DNA from: Betaproteobacteria bacterium
GTDB taxonomy: Bacteria; Pseudomonadota; Gammaproteobacteria; Burkholderiales; JAHFQX01
Assembly (NCBI GenBank): GCA_023259135.1
Contig: JAHFQX010000027.1
Span: forward strand, 1-39,524
Direction of reading: 5' to 3'
Length of the DNA stretch: 39,524 bases
The stretch's first letter is position 1. Every line of letters begins with the position of its first letter. The notes under the pieces are model-generated. The model worked only from the letters and a program-made list of their open reading frames with translations, was not told the origin of the DNA and ran no database searches. This document shows positions 26,728 to 32,376 of the stretch, piece after piece. The translations under genes were made by a program, and so were the position numbers.

Positions 26728-28241
26728 TCGCGGCGCCGTGCCCCGCCGCCGCCCTGCCGCGAGGCGCGGGCCATGAGGAAATGGACCAGCAAAGGGACTG
26801 GGCGTCCAGTGGCGCCTTTTTCCTTGCCGGATTTCCAGGCGGTGCCGGCGATGTCCAGGTGGGCCCAGGGCAATCCCTTGCTGAACCGGGACAGAAAGCA
26901 CGCGGCGGTGACGGTGCCCGCCGGACGTCCGCCGATGTTGGCCATGTCGGCGAAATTGCTGTTGAGCTGTTCCTGATATTCCTCCCATAGGGGCAGACGC
27001 CATGCCCGATCCCCGGAAGTTTCGGCGGCGGCCAGCAACTCGGCGCTCAGTGGCTCGTCGTTGCCCATCAAGCCCGAAGCCACATGCCCCAGGGCGATGA
27101 TGCAAGCGCCGGTGAGGGTGGCGATATCCACCACCGCCTCCGGATCGAAACGCCGGGCGTAGGTCAGGGCATCGCACAGAATCAGCCGGCCTTCGGCATC
27201 GGTATTGAGAATCTCGATGGTCTGGCCCGACAGGCTGGTGACCACGTCTCCCGGCCGGGTGGCCCGCCCCCCCGGCATGTTCTCGCAACTGGGGATCACC
27301 CCCACGACATTGACGGGAAGCCGCAGCCGGGCGCAGGCCTCCAGAGTGCCCAGCACGCTGGCGGCGCCGCACATATCGAACTTCATCTCGTCCATCTCCG
27401 GACCCGGCTTCAGGGAAATGCCGCCGGTATCGAAAGTGATGCCCTTGCCGATCAGCGCGACGGGGCGCTGTTTCCTGCCGGCCCCCTGGTAACTCAAGGT
27501 AATCAGCTTGGGCGGCTGGATGCTGCCTTGCGTCACCGACAACAGCGACCCCATTCCCAGCTTCTCCATGTCCTTGCGTTCCAACACCTCCACTTTGAGG
27601 CCGTGGCGCTTGCCCAAGGCCTGGGCTTGCTCCGCAAGATAGGTCGGGGTGCAAATGTTGCCGGGAAGATTGCCCAATTCCTTGGCCAAGCTCATGCCGT
27701 GGCCGATGGCCAACCCGGCTTGCAAGCCCCTTTGGGCCTCGGCTTTGCCGCCATCCTCCACTCCCAGGACGATATGCCGCAGATTGGCGGATTCGGTTTT
27801 GGGCTGGGTTTTGAAGCGGCTGAAACGATAGTCCCGATCGAGGATCTCCTTGGCCGCCTGGAGCGCCTTCCAAGCCGTATCCCGGCCGTTGACGGCCAGC
27901 TCCAACAGATAAAGAGCGGCATCCTGGGCGCCGGTGCCGGCCACCGCCTGGTAGGCGGTCTGTACCGCCGCGCGATAAGCGGAATCGCCCAACTCCGCCT
28001 GTGGGCCAAGACCCACCAGGACCACCCGGGACGTTGCCACCTTGGGCAACCGATGGGCTACCAGGCTGGAGCCCTTCTTGCCCTTCATGTCGCCGGTTTT
28101 CACCAACTCGGCAAGGGCGCCGCCGCTGGCTTCGTCCAGCCGGGCCGCGGCCGCGGAGAGTTTGCGGTCCTCAAAAACGCCCACCACCACCGCGCCTACC
28201 TTGAGTTTATGGGGTGCTGCTGTTTTTATGCTAAAGTCCAC
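26724..28241 (-). CDS. pepA: Leucyl aminopeptidase (M17)
   Basis: This 505-residue enzyme starts at GTG 28241 (MDFSIKTAAPHKLK), with GGAG six bases before. The C-terminal catalytic domain has IGKGITFDTGGISLKPGPEM, MKFDMCGAASVLG and the M17 signature NTDAEGRL (346-353), with the lysine, aspartates and glutamate that hold two metal ions. It removes N-terminal residues, mainly leucine, from peptides. In E. coli PepA also acts as a DNA-binding architectural protein in Xer recombination and pyrimidine control. A longer frame upstream of 28241 covers the intergenic promoter and is not used. A promoter lies at 28293-28322. Confidence 0.95.
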   Translation of the reverse strand: MDFSIKTAAPHKLKVGAVVVGVFEDRKLSAAAARLDEASGGALAELVKTGDMKGKKGSSLVAHRLPKVATSRVVLVGLGPQAELGDSAYRAAVQTAYQAVAGTGAQDAALYLLELAVNGRDTAWKALQAAKEILDRDYRFSRFKTQPKTESANLRHIVLGVEDGGKAEAQRGLQAGLAIGHGMSLAKELGNLPGNICTPTYLAEQAQALGKRHGLKVEVLERKDMEKLGMGSLLSVTQGSIQPPKLITLSYQGAGRKQRPVALIGKGITFDTGGISLKPGPEMDEMKFDMCGAASVLGTLEACARLRLPVNVVGVIPSCENMPGGRATRPGDVVTSLSGQTIEILNTDAEGRLILCDALTYARRFDPEAVVDIATLTGACIIALGHVASGLMGNDEPLSAELLAAAETSGDRAWRLPLWEEYQEQLNSNFADMANIGGRPAGTVTAACFLSRFSKGLPWAHLDIAGTAWKSGKEKGATGRPVPLLVHFLMARASRQGGGGARRRE

Positions 28242-28292
28242 GGTGCGCTCCAGAGTTAGGTTACTCGCTGATTTTCGATTGATCCCGCCAAA

Positions 28293-28322
28293 ATTATCCT
28301 CGGACTCTTCGCAAAAAGTCAA
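28293..28322 (-). promoter_or_regulatory. Promoter of pepA
   Basis: On the minus strand TTGACT (28317-28322) and GATAAT (28293-28298) are separated by 18 bp, close to the sigma-70 consensus. The start codon is 52 bp downstream. The -35 box ends one base before the lptF ATG on the other strand, so lptF transcription must start over this promoter. Confidence 0.65.
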
Positions 28323-28323
28323 A

Positions 28324-29415
28324 ATGGGTTCGGGCTCTCTGTTTCGCCGGGCCTTGATCGGCGAATTCACCGCCAACGGGGCGGCGGCGTTCCTGGTGCT
28401 GCTGGCCATCACCCTCACCACCCAGGTTATCCGCTTCCTGGGAGACGCCGCCGGCGGAACCATTGGCTCGGACGGCGTGCTGCCGCTGCTGGGTTTCTCG
28501 GCGCTGAGTTATCTGCCGGTGCTGCTGTCCCTGACGGCGTTCATCGCGGTGCTGTTGGCGCTGTCCCGCAGCCATCGGGATTCGGAGATGGTGATCTGGT
28601 TCGGCGCCGGCCTGAGCTTGACCCGCTGGATTCGTCCGGTGCTGGGCTTCGCCCTGCCCATTATCGCCACCATCGCCCTGTTGGCCTTGTTTCTCACCCC
28701 TTGGGCGCTGCGCAAGGGCGAGGAATTCCAGCGCCAAATGGAAGCCCGCGACGACGCCTCGTTAGTGGCCCCCGGCCTGTTCAAGGAATCTCGGCAAGCC
28801 GATCAAGTGTATTTCGTGGAAACCTTCAACGCCGATCTTTCCAGAGTGAACAACATCTTCGCGCGCTCCGTCCGGCAACGCCGGGAAGGCGTGATGGTGG
28901 CCCGGCAAGGATACGTGGAAACGGCGCCCAACGGCGACCGGTTTCTGGTATTGCTGGACGGCCGGCGTTACGAAGGGGAACCGGGCTCCGCCGAGTATCG
29001 CATCGTCGAGTTCCAGCGCTATGCCATGCGCGTCGAAGCTCATGAAGCCAAAAACTACCGGCCTTCCACCAAAACCCGCTCCAGCATGGATCTGTGGCGC
29101 TTGGGACACGCCGAGGATCTGGCCGAACTGTCCTGGCGCCTGGGGTTGCCGGTCAGCGGGCTCATCCTGGCGCTGGCGGCGATTCCCCTGAGCTTCGTCA
29201 ATCCGCGGAGCGGCCGCTCCCTGAACCTGCTGGCGGCCCTGGTCCTGTTCATCATCTACAGCAATTGCATGAGCATTGCTCAAGCCTGGATCGCTCAAGG
29301 CGAAATGGGCTTCTTCGGCGGCCTGGGCACGGTCCACGGCGGCTTGGCCCTTATCCTGGGATTACTGTTCTTCTGGCGTACCTCTCCGTTGCGTTTGCGC
29401 AAATGGCGGTTTTAA
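28324..29415 (+). CDS. lptF: LPS export ABC transporter permease LptF
   Basis: This 363-residue inner-membrane protein has three N-terminal helices (FLVLLAITLTTQVIRFLGDA; FSALSYLPVLLSLTAFIAVL; LPIIATIALLALFLTPWALR). A periplasmic jellyroll domain of about 150 residues follows, with MVARQGYVETAPNGDRF, then three C-terminal helices (GLPVSGLILALAAIPLSFVN). This is the YjgP/YjgQ family. With LptG and the ATPase LptB it lifts LPS from the inner membrane onto the Lpt bridge. Its end overlaps lptG by 13 bp. The start at ATG 28324 is chosen from the family (SLFRRALIGEF); the frame upstream is open but lies in the divergent promoter. Confidence 0.93.
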   Translation: MGSGSLFRRALIGEFTANGAAAFLVLLAITLTTQVIRFLGDAAGGTIGSDGVLPLLGFSALSYLPVLLSLTAFIAVLLALSRSHRDSEMVIWFGAGLSLTRWIRPVLGFALPIIATIALLALFLTPWALRKGEEFQRQMEARDDASLVAPGLFKESRQADQVYFVETFNADLSRVNNIFARSVRQRREGVMVARQGYVETAPNGDRFLVLLDGRRYEGEPGSAEYRIVEFQRYAMRVEAHEAKNYRPSTKTRSSMDLWRLGHAEDLAELSWRLGLPVSGLILALAAIPLSFVNPRSGRSLNLLAALVLFIIYSNCMSIAQAWIAQGEMGFFGGLGTVHGGLALILGLLFFWRTSPLRLRKWRF

Positions 29416-30476
29416 GAAAATACCTGTTCCGGGAAATCGCCCTTAGCACCGTTTTCATCCTGGCGGCGCTGCTGGCGCTGTTCGGTCTGCTGGATTTGAT
29501 CGGGGAGTTAGCCGACGTGGGCAAGCAAAATTATCGCTTACCCACCGCCCTGGCCTTCGTCGCCTTGAGTCTGCCGGGCCACGTTTACGAGCTCATGCCC
29601 ATCGCCGCCCTGATCGGGACCCTGTTCGCCCTGGGGCAACTCTCCGCCAGTTCGGAGTACGCGGTGATGCGGGTTTCCGGAGTCTCCGCCGCCGGCATGG
29701 TGGGGATGCTGCTCAGAGTCGGGACGGGTTTCGCGATCGTGACTTTCGTGTTCGGCGAATTCATCGCCCCGCCAGCGGACCAACTGGCCCAGCGCTTGCG
29801 GATCAAGGCCACTCAGAACCTGGTCGCCCAGGAATTCCGCTCCGGCCTATGGGTGCGGGACAGCGGAAACTTCATCAACGTGGCCCAGGTCACGGCGGAT
29901 GCCGGGTTGAGGAATATCAAGGTGTTCGAATTCGGCGACGATTTTCGGCTGCGAGCCATCCGTCACGCCCAAAGCGGCGAATACCAAGGGGCAAACCGCT
30001 GGCGGCTAAAGGAGGTTACCGAGACGAATTTCGAGGACCACAAGGTTGCGGTACGCCGGATCGCCGAACAGGAATGGCTTTCGGTGCTCAGCCCGGACAT
30101 CCTGTCGGTGTTGCTGGTGGTTCCCGAGCAAATGTCCGTCTGGAACCTATACCAGTTCATTCGCTATCTGCAGGAGAACCAGCAGCAAACCCGCCGCCAC
30201 GAGATTGCCCTGTGGACCAAATTGAGCTACCCCTTCGCCGTATGGGTCATGATGCTGCTGGCGCTGCCCTTCACCCACCTGGTCGCCCGGGCCGGCAACC
30301 TGGGGGCCAAAATCTTCACCGGCATCATGCTGGGACTCGGTTTTCACCTCGTCAACCGGTTGTTCGCCCACATGGGGCTGTTGAGCGGCTGGCCGCCCCT
30401 GACGGCGGCCGCGCTGCCCACGTTGTCGTTTCTGGCGGCGGCGTTGTTCCTGCTGTGGCGGATAGAGCGCCGCTGA
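29403..30476 (+). CDS. lptG: LPS export ABC transporter permease LptG
   Basis: This 357-residue protein reads MAVLRKYLFREIALSTVFIL, AALLALFGLLDLIGELADVG, then YELMPIAALIGTLFALGQLS and SSEYAVMRVSGVSA. The EYAVMRVSG coupling segment and the YELMP motif are typical of LptG. A periplasmic beta domain (FGDDFRLRAIRHAQSGEY) precedes the last three helices (YPFAVWVMMLLALPFTHLVA; LGAKIFTGIMLGLGFHLVNR). It partners LptF in extracting LPS. The ATG lies inside the end of lptF. The next gene, encoding an RDD protein, faces it 7 bp away. Confidence 0.94.
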   Translation: MAVLRKYLFREIALSTVFILAALLALFGLLDLIGELADVGKQNYRLPTALAFVALSLPGHVYELMPIAALIGTLFALGQLSASSEYAVMRVSGVSAAGMVGMLLRVGTGFAIVTFVFGEFIAPPADQLAQRLRIKATQNLVAQEFRSGLWVRDSGNFINVAQVTADAGLRNIKVFEFGDDFRLRAIRHAQSGEYQGANRWRLKEVTETNFEDHKVAVRRIAEQEWLSVLSPDILSVLLVVPEQMSVWNLYQFIRYLQENQQQTRRHEIALWTKLSYPFAVWVMMLLALPFTHLVARAGNLGAKIFTGIMLGLGFHLVNRLFAHMGLLSGWPPLTAAALPTLSFLAAALFLLWRIERR

Positions 30477-30483
30477 CGGGGGC

Positions 30484-30948
30484 TCAGCGTGGCGAGCCGA
30501 TAAAAACGATACGGGTTCCGGCCAGCCGGTCGTGCAGGAACTGGCGCTCGGGATCAAACAAAGCCCACGCCCAGGCTAGCCCGCCCAAGCCGATCCCCAC
30601 CACTGCCAGCACATAACGGGCAATCGCTTGTCGCGGCTCGATGGGGCCACCGGCCCGGGTCACCAACCTCAAGCGCCAAGTCTTCATGGGCAGGGTCTGT
30701 CCGCCAAGCCGCCAGCACCCAACGAAATACACTCCGCATACCGCCAGCAAATAAAGCTGCAATGCCGGCCGGCCCAGGGCCAGCGGAATCGCCCAAGCGA
30801 ACCCCAAAAACAGAAAACCCGCCACCAGCACCAGGGCGGCCAACAACAGACTTTCGTAAACCAAGCTCAACAAACGGCGCCCCAATCCCGCCAGAGGCCG
30901 GGTAGCGGCTTGCCAATCCGTGGCAGGAACGTCGGCGGCAGCCGCCAT
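30484..30948 (-). CDS. RDD-family membrane protein
   Basis: This 154-residue protein has the RDD pattern: LAGLGRRLLSLVYESLLLAA (an Arg and an acidic residue in the first helix region), FLGFAWAIPLALGRPALQLY, then GGQTLPMKTWRLRLVTRAGG and a last hydrophobic segment followed by FDPERQFLHDRLAGTRIV. Three or four membrane helices are expected. RDD proteins are inner-membrane proteins of unclear, possibly transport, function. Its ATG overlaps the stop of the DUF3106 gene (TGATG). It ends the four-gene string that starts with the sigma factor. Confidence 0.85.
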   Translation of the reverse strand: MAAAADVPATDWQAATRPLAGLGRRLLSLVYESLLLAALVLVAGFLFLGFAWAIPLALGRPALQLYLLAVCGVYFVGCWRLGGQTLPMKTWRLRLVTRAGGPIEPRQAIARYVLAVVGIGLGGLAWAWALFDPERQFLHDRLAGTRIVFIGSPR

Positions 30949-31427
30949 CAGTTGGCGGGCACCGACGGCGCCACCGCCGGGGGCGCTGTGGGAGGGGGAG
31001 GCGCTGACCGAGCTGACCGAGGTTGGGCAGTTCGCTTCAACGCATCGCGCCGTTCTTCGGGCAACTGTTGATATTGCTCCCATTTCCGCTTGACTTCCTC
31101 GCGCTTTTCCGGGGGAAGCCGTTTCAGATTCTTGAATTTTTCCCGGGCCTTCATACGCTCGGCGGAACTCAGTTGGGCCCAGTCCCTCATCCGGGACTGG
31201 ATGCGCTGCTGCTCTTCCGGTTTCATGTCGGGGTAGCGTTTGGCGACCCCCAGCCATTTCTTGCGCCGAACGGGCCCCATTTCATCCCACTCGGCGGCGA
31301 GCGGGGCGAGGGCCGTTTGCTGAGCGGGAGAAAGCTCGGTCCAGCGATGTGGCGGGGGACTGGGGGCGGCAACGGCAGGGAGGGCCAGCCCCAGCCACAG
31401 GATCACTCCGAAGACTGCCGGAGCCAT
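30948..31427 (-). CDS. DUF3106 secreted protein
   Basis: This 159-residue protein has a signal peptide (MAPAVFGVILWLGLALPAVA) and a mature part rich in charged helices: TELSPAQQTALAPLAAEWDE, VRRKKWLGVAKRYPDMKPEE, RIQSRMRDWAQLSSAERMKA, REKFKNLKRLPPEKREEVKR. Repeated L-x-P-x-x-R/Q blocks with W are the mark of DUF3106. The C-terminus is Pro/Ala-rich. The function is unknown. The repeat layout recalls periplasmic helical stress proteins such as CpxP/Spy, but this is only a resemblance. It overlaps DUF3619 at its start (25 bp) and the RDD gene at its end. Confidence 0.8.
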   Translation of the reverse strand: MAPAVFGVILWLGLALPAVAAPSPPPHRWTELSPAQQTALAPLAAEWDEMGPVRRKKWLGVAKRYPDMKPEEQQRIQSRMRDWAQLSSAERMKAREKFKNLKRLPPEKREEVKRKWEQYQQLPEERRDALKRTAQPRSARSAPPPPTAPPAVAPSVPAN

Positions 31428-31783
31428 ACGTCGAATCCATTGTCCAGATAGACGTCGATGGGCAACTCGTCGGCCAGCAATTTGGCGTCGATCTCGGCGA
31501 AGTCCCCGCCCCGTTGCTGTTGAATGCGCTCCCAATAGAAAAACCCCGTCAAGACGAATAACAGCGCCAGCACGATCAACAGCCAAGACACCCCCGGGGC
31601 GCGGTTTCCCCGGCCCCAGACCAGAACGTCCCCTTCCCATCCCATGGGCCGATCCGCTTCACGGGCCAGGGTAATAGCTCGGGCCCGTGCGCCGGCCAGC
31701 CGCCGCACGATGGGGCCATCCAATTGCCCCAGAGATTCGTTAAGGCGAGTCACGATTTTCGCCGCAAAGTCGGATTCATTCAC
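31403..31783 (-). CDS. DUF3619 small membrane protein
   Basis: This 126-residue protein starts at GTG 31783 (MNESDFAAKIVTRLNESLGQ). It has an N-terminal cytoplasmic helical part, one transmembrane helix (VSWLLIVLALLFVLTGFFYW) and a C-terminal periplasmic tail ending DELPIDVYLDNGFDVWLRQS. The D-YLD-GF-W ending is that of DUF3619. Its start overlaps the sigma-factor stop by four bases (GTGA). The position directly after an ECF-like sigma gene and the cytosol-membrane-periplasm layout match those of anti-sigma factors, but this function is inferred. Confidence 0.8.
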   Translation of the reverse strand: MNESDFAAKIVTRLNESLGQLDGPIVRRLAGARARAITLAREADRPMGWEGDVLVWGRGNRAPGVSWLLIVLALLFVLTGFFYWERIQQQRGGDFAEIDAKLLADELPIDVYLDNGFDVWLRQSSE

Positions 31784-32376
31784 AGTTCGATTCCTTTTTC
31801 CCGGAGGACAACCGCCAAGGCACGCACTGCCCGGAAGCAATGGGTTTTGACGCTCCCCTCGGAGCATCCCATGGCCGCCGCGGCCTCCGACACATCCAAA
31901 TCTTCCCAATAACGCAGCAGGAAAGCTTGGCGTTGACGCGCCGGCAATCCTTCCAGGGCTTCTTCAATCCCTTGAAGGGTTTGGGCTTGCTCCATGCGCG
32001 CGGCCGGATCCCCGCCGAAATTGGAGGAACCCTTGACCTCCAAAGTTTCCAGAGGGTCATGATCTTGGTCCTGTCCCGCCGGACCGAAAGAGGAAATCAG
32101 GGTGGACCAAAAATTGCGGACCTTCTGCCGGCGGAAATGGTCGCGGACGGTATTCTGCAAAATCCGCTGAAACAGCATGGGGTACTCGGCCGCGGGCTTG
32201 CCGGAATATTTTTCGGCGAGCTTGAGCATGGCATCCTGCACGACGTCCAGGGCCAGGGCTTCGTCGCGCACGGCAAATAGGGCGTGCTTGAAAGCCCGGC
32301 GTTCGACGCCGGCCAGAAAATCAGCGAGTTCTCGGGAACTGGCCAGGAGCGCCCCTAGGGAAAAACCCCAAGCCAC
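31780..32376 (-). CDS. ECF-type RNA polymerase sigma factor
   Basis: This ~198-residue protein has region 2 (FKHALFAVRDEALALDVVQD, AMLKLAEKY, then YPMLFQRILQNTVRDHFRRQ, binding core polymerase and the -10 element). After a linker (FGPAGQDQDHDPLETLEVKG) comes region 4 (LEGLPARQRQAFLLRYWEDL, DVSEAAAAMGCSEGSVKTHC), a helix-turn-helix for the -35 element. This is sigma-70 subfamily 2 with no region 1.1 or 3. The opening GTG 32376 has no clear ribosome-binding site, and family members begin closer to ASSRELADF, so the true start may be some ten codons further in. It heads the DUF3619, DUF3106 and RDD genes, with which it shares overlaps. Confidence 0.88.
   Translation of the reverse strand: MAWGFSLGALLASSRELADFLAGVERRAFKHALFAVRDEALALDVVQDAMLKLAEKYSGKPAAEYPMLFQRILQNTVRDHFRRQKVRNFWSTLISSFGPAGQDQDHDPLETLEVKGSSNFGGDPAARMEQAQTLQGIEEALEGLPARQRQAFLLRYWEDLDVSEAAAAMGCSEGSVKTHCFRAVRALAVVLREKGIEL

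Follow-up and report, generated by a model that had tools for sequence, protein, structure and literature searches.

Comparative analysis of a four-gene operon from a Betaproteobacteria bacterium points to a sigma/anti-sigma switch, and we consider it probable that the DUF3619 protein acts in this switch as a CnrY-like anti-sigma factor, that the ECF sigma factor is translated from a CUG start codon and that the output consists of small secreted proteins. The operon lies in the window, by which we mean the whole 39,524-nucleotide stretch analyzed here (contig JAHFQX010000027.1 of assembly GCA_023259135.1, order Burkholderiales in GTDB), and its genes follow one another on the minus strand from 32376 to 30484 in the order ECF sigma factor, DUF3619, DUF3106 and RDD. 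The module is real, widespread and unnamed in the literature that we searched, and it may already figure under a number in the ECF re-classification. Its mechanism class is already known; its new features would be a CUG start codon, DUF3106 as a partner and small secreted proteins as the output. Two unnamed Pfam families hence gain a testable role, and both a promoter and a target gene are predicted in the genome from which the window derives. The features of the operon are:

31780..32346, minus strand: ECF sigma factor gene, 188 aa (NF006550, 255.6 bits), with proposed CTG start at 32346-32344
32376, minus strand: alternative GTG start of the sigma factor gene, in frame, 10 codons upstream of the CTG
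32352..32356, minus strand: AGGGG, Shine-Dalgarno-like, 5 nt before the proposed CTG (read from the sequence)
31403..31783, minus strand: DUF3619 protein, 126 aa, putative anti-sigma factor with one transmembrane helix and a cytoplasmic N-terminus (PF12279, topology, coupling with sigma)
31780..31783, minus strand: GTGA, shared by the sigma stop codon and the start of DUF3619 (read from the sequence; ATGA or GTGA in relatives)
30948..31427, minus strand: DUF3106 protein, 159 aa, proposed periplasmic partner (PF11304, 121.5 bits; predicted model)
30484..30948, minus strand: RDD-family membrane protein, 154 aa (PF06271, 68.0 bits), order-specific addition to the operon

The initial annotation had described four genes joined by three stop-start overlaps, and all of these were found: the GTGA listed above, 25 bp shared by DUF3619 and DUF3106 (31403-31427, minus strand) and TGATG between DUF3106 and RDD (stop 30950-30948, ATG 30948-30946). 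All assigned families exceed their curated cut-offs (173 for NF006550, 24.3 for PF11304, 24.1 for PF06271; DUF3619 scores 85.2 bits against PF12279, cut-off 22.2, and the sigma factor 65.1 bits against Sigma70_r4_2, cut-off 25.7) save Sigma70_r2, which falls slightly below its own (22.2 bits, E 1e-4, cut-off 24); both sigma domains are present in the predicted model of a relative, L041. The overlap between the sigma factor and DUF3619 genes is evidently not due to chance, because 192 of 231 related loci have ATGA (152) or GTGA (40) at the sigma stop; this tally covers the sigma/DUF3619 junction only and does not depend on how the DUF3619 frame was picked. The window proteins are members of PF12279, PF11304 and NF006550, families whose names carry no function, and the literature search returned no paper naming DUF3619 or DUF3106, in agreement with the earlier remark that these two lack assigned roles. 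Judged by their sequences, the flanking genes are lptF/lptG, which run toward the operon at one end, and ribF, which runs away from it at the other. Convergent lptF/lptG close the operon in the window (28042-30476), as they do in 10 of the 16 long order loci (L331, L334-L337, L340, L342-L345), and ribF appears in none of these 16 stretches.

The breadth of the module was assessed by searching named genomes with the sigma factor only, a design that avoids circularity. Among the best 80 of at least 586 confirmed candidates, DUF3106 lies downstream on the same strand in all 80 (own profile, E <=1e-4), the taxa including Gammaproteobacteria, Nitrospira, Geobacter, Trichlorobacter, a Zetaproteobacterium and Dyella; judged by this gene neighborhood, sigma factor and DUF3106 form a widespread module. 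Altogether, 231 distinct sigma loci were gathered. An automatic test recognized DUF3106 in 230 of them, and in the remaining one, L069, DUF3106 sits in an ORF that overlaps the sigma ORF; many of the 231 were fetched through DUF3619 or DUF3106, and the unbiased count is that of the 80. Thirteen of 262 loci (L020, L075, L233, L234, L237, L239, L254, L256, L257, L259-L262), some cut at contig ends or stemming from weak matches, have no sigma factor of this type within the stretch examined, and DUF3106 may also occur alone. PF11304 gives a weak, sub-cut-off match in E. coli.

PF12279 covers mainly the order of the window. The window's own genome contains one DUF3619 gene, and the family was detected in 146 of 200 genomes sampled from the order. 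Among 274 class genomes, 23 gave a match (the own genome, one relative from the order and 21 weak-scoring genomes), and DUF3106 is present in 74 of the same 274. Outside the order, the gene in the same position scores weakly in L018, at 23 bits, and has no match in L110. Here and below, "outside the order" designates loci not drawn by the order search, of which the Methylotenera MAGs L132 and L148 may belong inside. An extra small secreted-looking protein of the LLEFLGxxE...W.DP type is seen between the anti-sigma gene and DUF3106 (e.g. L070:1903-2150, minus strand); judged by a loose motif, 44 of the 138 loci from outside the order encode it, as does 1 of the 91 order loci, and the one protein tested, that of L070, has no Pfam match.

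To define the promoter, a dyad search was run over 206 upstream regions. It revealed a GTCA..CGTT dyad at fixed spacing in 63 regions, compared to about 0.7 in shuffled sequences, with the promoter consensus TGTCAACC-N14-GCGTT (also (G/C)CGTT). Of 120 loci outside the order, 69 have the motif close to the sigma start, compared to 2 of 86 inside it. Among 75 named loci with 1300 bases upstream, 61 carry GTCAAC-N16-CGTT in sense and 1 in antisense orientation. Outside the order, the sigma factor hence seems, from the conservation of this site, to regulate its own operon. For 19 of the 61 loci the promoter sits 500-1053 bases upstream, and a small gene, secreted-looking by eye, intervenes; the intervening proteins are of LDRRGDRI-repeat, His/Arg-rich, EF-hand or Gly-repeat type. 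Eight loci, several of them close relatives, present a second site downstream of the operon and ahead of a lipoprotein gene, and in a ninth genome a motif site elsewhere also precedes a lipoprotein gene; one such lipoprotein belongs to DUF4382 (30.4 bits, cut-off 25). Any regulon would be small, because genome-wide counts in 25 genomes amount to only 92 for the motif versus 72 for its reversed pattern. The literature search for TGTCAACC with ECF sigma factors returned only unrelated papers, as judged from their listing.

The picture differs inside the order, where the motif exceeds the threshold in 3 of 86 operons. The window operon has no recognizable self-promoter of this type (score -7.9), and its autoregulation was rejected for want of a motif site. 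A conserved upstream element, GGTCAAG, is found in 47 of the 86 order loci; it was not taken as the promoter of the sigma factor because its other strand, CTTGACC...TACTGT, resembles a divergent sigma-70 promoter, and it looks like the promoter of a neighboring gene.

Candidate targets inside the order were sought with the strict pattern GTCAACC-N15-CGTT[AG]. A first set of 16 order genomes yielded 27 sites (20 for the reversed pattern), to which the own genome adds two, and 11 of these 29 sites lie 83-97 bases before members of one gene family, in 10 of 17 genomes. This family (M[NSTR]KLLxxLIA..., secreted by eye and mostly Lys-rich) was noticed in the first set before any criterion was fixed. 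A criterion was then set ahead of the second set of 17 more genomes (26 strict sites versus 34 reversed), namely a small, secreted, charged protein encoded 50-130 bases downstream. It holds for 12 of 29 sites in the first set, one of which (L277) is probably a spurious frame, and for 4 of 26 in the second (p 0.11 against 0/24 and 0.027 against 0/36). Six second-set sites, in 5 genomes, precede the Lys-rich family, the family pattern having been written after viewing the second-set loci and some genomes of the two sets sharing a genus. Secreted ORFs in general follow 14 of 29 sites in the first set and 10 of 26 in the second. The controls were empty by every criterion, both at 24 reversed-pattern sites and at 12 sites in 19 order genomes lacking DUF3619, a few of which may carry a divergent copy missed by PF12279. 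Combining both sets, 17 of 55 sites precede the Lys-rich family, compared to 0 of 36 control sites (Fisher p 7e-5). In the own genome, the corresponding site occupies positions 13336-13361 of contig 13 (minus strand), 92 bases before a gene encoding MTKLLATLIAAVFAVSS...EKKEEMKKEKK. Four such Lys-rich proteins were tested, and no Pfam family reached its cut-off. Genome-wide motif counts were discarded as regulon evidence, being barely enriched or not at all (92 versus 72, 27 versus 20 and 26 versus 34 as above; 17 versus 19 for a loose pattern in the own genome), and because the totals are not enriched, the position of sites relative to genes was used alone.

Going by these positions, the sigma switch seems to activate genes for small, charged, secreted proteins. 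The positions could also be explained if the sites before Lys-rich genes were used by a different sigma factor whose promoter is similar, the window sigma factor having other targets. Such an arrangement would accord with the scarcity of the motif in the operons of the order (3/86), and the association of sigma factor and motif draws on relatives outside the order and on co-occurrence. We nevertheless regard it as unlikely, since the genomes without a DUF3619 match offer 0 of 12 sites against 17 of 55 in those possessing it, and since the region 4.2 consensus of the sigma factor, GCSEGSVKTH, is common to both clades.

The second component of the predicted switch is the DUF3619 protein. The initial annotation had proposed a single transmembrane (TM) helix with a cytoplasmic N-terminus, as in an anti-sigma factor, and this proposal finds support in topology, covariation with sigma region 4 and the conserved overlap, by which DUF3619 behaves like a membrane anti-sigma factor. 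A candidate ORF directly follows the sigma gene in 229 of 231 loci. By our own threshold, 198 of these ORFs have one TM helix, 30 none and 1 two, the 198 being an upper figure, as the middle ORF was picked among frames by a score favoring one TM helix and the C-terminal motif. Within 15 residues of the TM helix, the 198 one-TM ORFs carry 508 Lys and Arg residues on the N-terminal side and 108 on the C-terminal side, and by locus the orientation is N-in in 166, tied in 25 and N-out in 7. The TM helix begins at a median position of 61, leaving about 60 residues before it, and the window protein contains no cysteine. The C-terminus bears an [F/L]xxW[L/I/V/M/A] motif at 65 of the 91 loci of the order and, outside it, at 131 of 138. 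The DUF3619 proteins of L203-L207 (order family f195) lack the GFxxWL tail and end directly after a Y/F-V/I-D motif (one residue later in L207), with TGA, TAA and TAG all found as stops.

Coupling between the two proteins was quantified by mean-field analysis of 207 pairs (185 effective). The strongest inter-protein coupling joins sigma column 133 (W147 counted from the CTG) to L14 of DUF3619 with a z of 8.8, compared to maxima of 4.2-6.3 in 12 within-clade permutations (two clades), the sole correction for phylogeny. Adjoining pairs are also coupled (126-14, 129-14, 118-11 and 119-15, sigma to DUF3619), so that helix 1 of DUF3619 covaries with sigma region 4; the pairs linking helix 2 and the sigma2 domain (5-36, 30-29) are weak and within the permutation range. 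This signal fits the contact between helix 1 and sigma4 that PMC7406223 describes for class I anti-sigma factors and CnrY.

Structure prediction of the complex, which the initial annotation had put forward as a check, was performed as a single-chain AlphaFold model in which the sigma factor and DUF3619 of one locus are in frame and the stop is read through (mean pLDDT 79, pTM 0.58). The L041 DUF3619 model shows helices at residues 1-21 and 26-43, followed by a long TM helix. The sigma factor of the joint model superposes on NepR-, RsiW- and CnrY-bound sigma factors at 2.9-3.7 A over 142-150 residues, compared to 21-28 A for polymerase-bound ECF sigma factors when both domains are aligned. It thus adopts the closed shape of some anti-sigma complexes, which is consistent with anti-sigma binding but not diagnostic of it, because the SigG1 crystal (7qh5), titled without an anti-sigma factor, is matched as well, at 3.8 A over 146 residues, and the fit to sigma factors bound by RseA or RskA is poor (11.9 A and 8.6 A). 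We describe DUF3619 as working like CnrY and do not file it as a member of that family, because phmmer matched the window protein to no PDB chain at E up to 10.

The DUF3106 protein has a signal-peptide-like N-terminus, assigned by eye, followed by seven predicted helices (mean pLDDT 86.9). Its gene neighborhood supports a secreted partner in the sigma module, as first proposed; the likeness to periplasmic stress sensors that accompanied this proposal found neither a CpxP/Spy/CnrX-type match nor significant coupling with DUF3619, and both the signal and a sensor role for DUF3106 are conjectural. Kinship with CpxP, Spy or CnrX had been suggested by PEQR-type repeats and was dropped as unsupported, without being excluded: no PDB match of this type was obtained by sequence at E up to 1, and fold comparison was weak (best Z 3.4), these families being absent from the fold lists. 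Coupling between DUF3106 and DUF3619 reaches 4.9, which is not significant against permutations of 4.5-6.2, and the location of 10 of the 15 best pairs on the periplasmic part is a hint only. A search with the window RDD protein placed it beside the module at 72 of the 91 order loci and at none of the 140 loci outside the order, whereby RDD was rejected as a core part and is best read, on this distribution, as an order-specific addition to the operon. The operon had been presented as a complete envelope-stress circuit; RDD falls outside its core, envelope stress is a conjectural signal, and this description leaves out the output, namely the predicted promoter and its targets, which in this order are located elsewhere in the genome.

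DUF3619 might conversely be an accessory membrane protein, with DUF3106 (or RDD) as the regulator and the sigma factor controlled mainly by low synthesis. The rare CUG start does suggest control at synthesis, and DUF3106 accompanies every one of the 80 best loci of the sigma-only search. Yet DUF3106 looks secreted and could not then meet the sigma factor directly, whereas DUF3619 possesses a cytoplasmic part whose helix 1 covaries with sigma region 4, and we judge the accessory role to be quite improbable.

The remaining component of our preferred reading, an anti-sigma DUF3619 acting on the sigma factor, is the way in which the latter is translated. The sigma family probably starts mostly at CTG (CUG), and the window gene, whose start had been placed at 32376, probably does so at the CTG at 32346-32344, five bases downstream of AGGGG. 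The position scored, nine codons before the conserved F of FLxxVExRA, holds NTG in 156 of 208 loci (CTG 118, ATG 18, TTG 15, GTG 5) and another Leu codon in 2, compared to CTG 58, ATG 14, TTG 20, GTG 0 and other Leu codons 104 at an internal Leu six codons later. The 52 loci without NTG, all outside the order, must therefore start elsewhere. In 46 of 117 CTG loci, the stretch from the in-frame stop upstream to the CTG is free of ATG, GTG and TTG, and 35 of these 46 have no canonical start before the FL anchor either; a stop codon immediately precedes the CTG in L043 and L052 and lies two codons before it in L114. CTG was observed in the order, other Gammaproteobacteria, Candidatus Nitrospira defluvii, Geobacter sp. 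OR-1, Trichlorobacter and a Zetaproteobacterium.

These observations are accompanied by a difference in Shine-Dalgarno (SD) content. SD-like matches of at least 4 bases precede 71% of CTG starts, compared to 9-31% at seven shifted control positions and 37% for the closest canonical codon upstream; for ATG, TTG or GTG starts the share is 24%. CTG and other starts differ both within the order (35/59 versus 5/27, p 5e-4) and outside it (48/58 versus 4/11, p 0.003), with p values that ignore phylogeny. At the window GTG no SD is visible by eye, and the AGGGG before the CTG may act as one, a variant that the tally across loci did not count. That the conserved CTG is instead an internal leucine downstream of an ATG, GTG or TTG start, for which the in-frame GTG of the window and a canonical codon between stop and CTG in 71 of the 117 CTG loci would offer candidates, is very improbable in view of the near absence of other Leu codons at this position, the 46 loci devoid of such a start and the excess of SD-like matches at CTG.

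A CUG start conserved from the order through other Gammaproteobacteria as far as Nitrospira, Geobacter/Trichlorobacter and a Zetaproteobacterium, the SD being stronger beside CUG and weaker beside ATG, TTG or GTG, could constitute a built-in translational throttle that tunes sigma output narrowly and may respond to initiation factors or ribosome state, an idea for which we see roughly equal chances of being right or wrong. The gene infC, encoding IF3, has a conserved AUU start codon. The likeness between both cases lies in a rare start codon retained across many species, and the difference in the codon and gene class. If the throttle is real, the sigma family would add to infC a second regulatory gene in which a non-standard start codon is conserved, and translation initiation would become testable as a control point of the switch. 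The literature search found no paper on CUG or CTG starts in sigma or anti-sigma genes. Standard gene callers do not as a rule consider CTG starts, and database N-termini of this sigma family may therefore often be wrong.

We propose that DUF3619 is a small anti-sigma factor similar to class II (CnrY-type) proteins, two cytoplasmic helices of which would hold the sigma factor, with helix 1 on region 4, and whose single TM helix would span the inner membrane and lead to a short periplasmic tail usually ending in [F/L]xxW. The secreted, helical DUF3106 protein would probably touch this tail and set whether the sigma factor is held. The sigma factor would be made at a low rate from its CUG and DUF3619 translated from the overlapping start, so that the anti-sigma factor should be in excess. 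Once freed, the sigma factor would transcribe from TGTCAACC-N14-(G/C)CGTT promoters, the predicted targets including its own operon outside the order and small secreted, mostly Lys-rich proteins inside it. The output would be a few charged secreted proteins that perhaps protect the envelope.

The closest known counterpart is CnrH/CnrY/CnrX of Cupriavidus metallidurans, with a class II anti-sigma factor and, in CnrX, a helical periplasmic protein. In both systems an ECF sigma factor would be accompanied by a helical protein of the periplasm and by a small single-pass anti-sigma factor that has two helices in the cytoplasm. The two-helix binding mode of CnrY is described in PMC7406223. The joint-model sigma factor superposes on CnrY-bound CnrH (4cxf) with a Z of 12.6 and 3.7 A over 142 residues; the differences are that the window DUF3619 matches no PDB chain by sequence, that DUF3106 matches none of the CnrX type, and that the targets are not the same. 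RpoE/RseA/RseB and other class I systems likewise encode a membrane anti-sigma factor and its periplasmic partner in one operon. DUF3619 departs from them in its roughly 60 residues before the TM helix, its two predicted helices (L041) and the missing cysteine of the window protein, and the joint-model sigma factor fits poorly on RseA-bound sigma (1or7, 11.9 A). SbrI/SbrR of Pseudomonas is a possible characterized relative.

Several further proteins were seen next to sites of this type. LDRRGDRI-repeat secreted proteins follow a sigma-type promoter in L092, L095, L099, L125, L138-L140, L144, L317 and L326, and the one tested, from L099, matched Pfam only below cut-off, to an apolipoprotein-like family. 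The second strict site of the own genome (L277; contig 81, 1565-1590) lies upstream of a secreted ORF with MNRFVYFFAALVACFALMGPAAAAVNINSATVEELQA, which by eye we take to be ComEA-like. At L320 (G112 contig 7), the gene that follows a motif site encodes a secreted EGKCG-repeat protein reminiscent of HvfA-type copper-binding peptides; it has no Pfam match.
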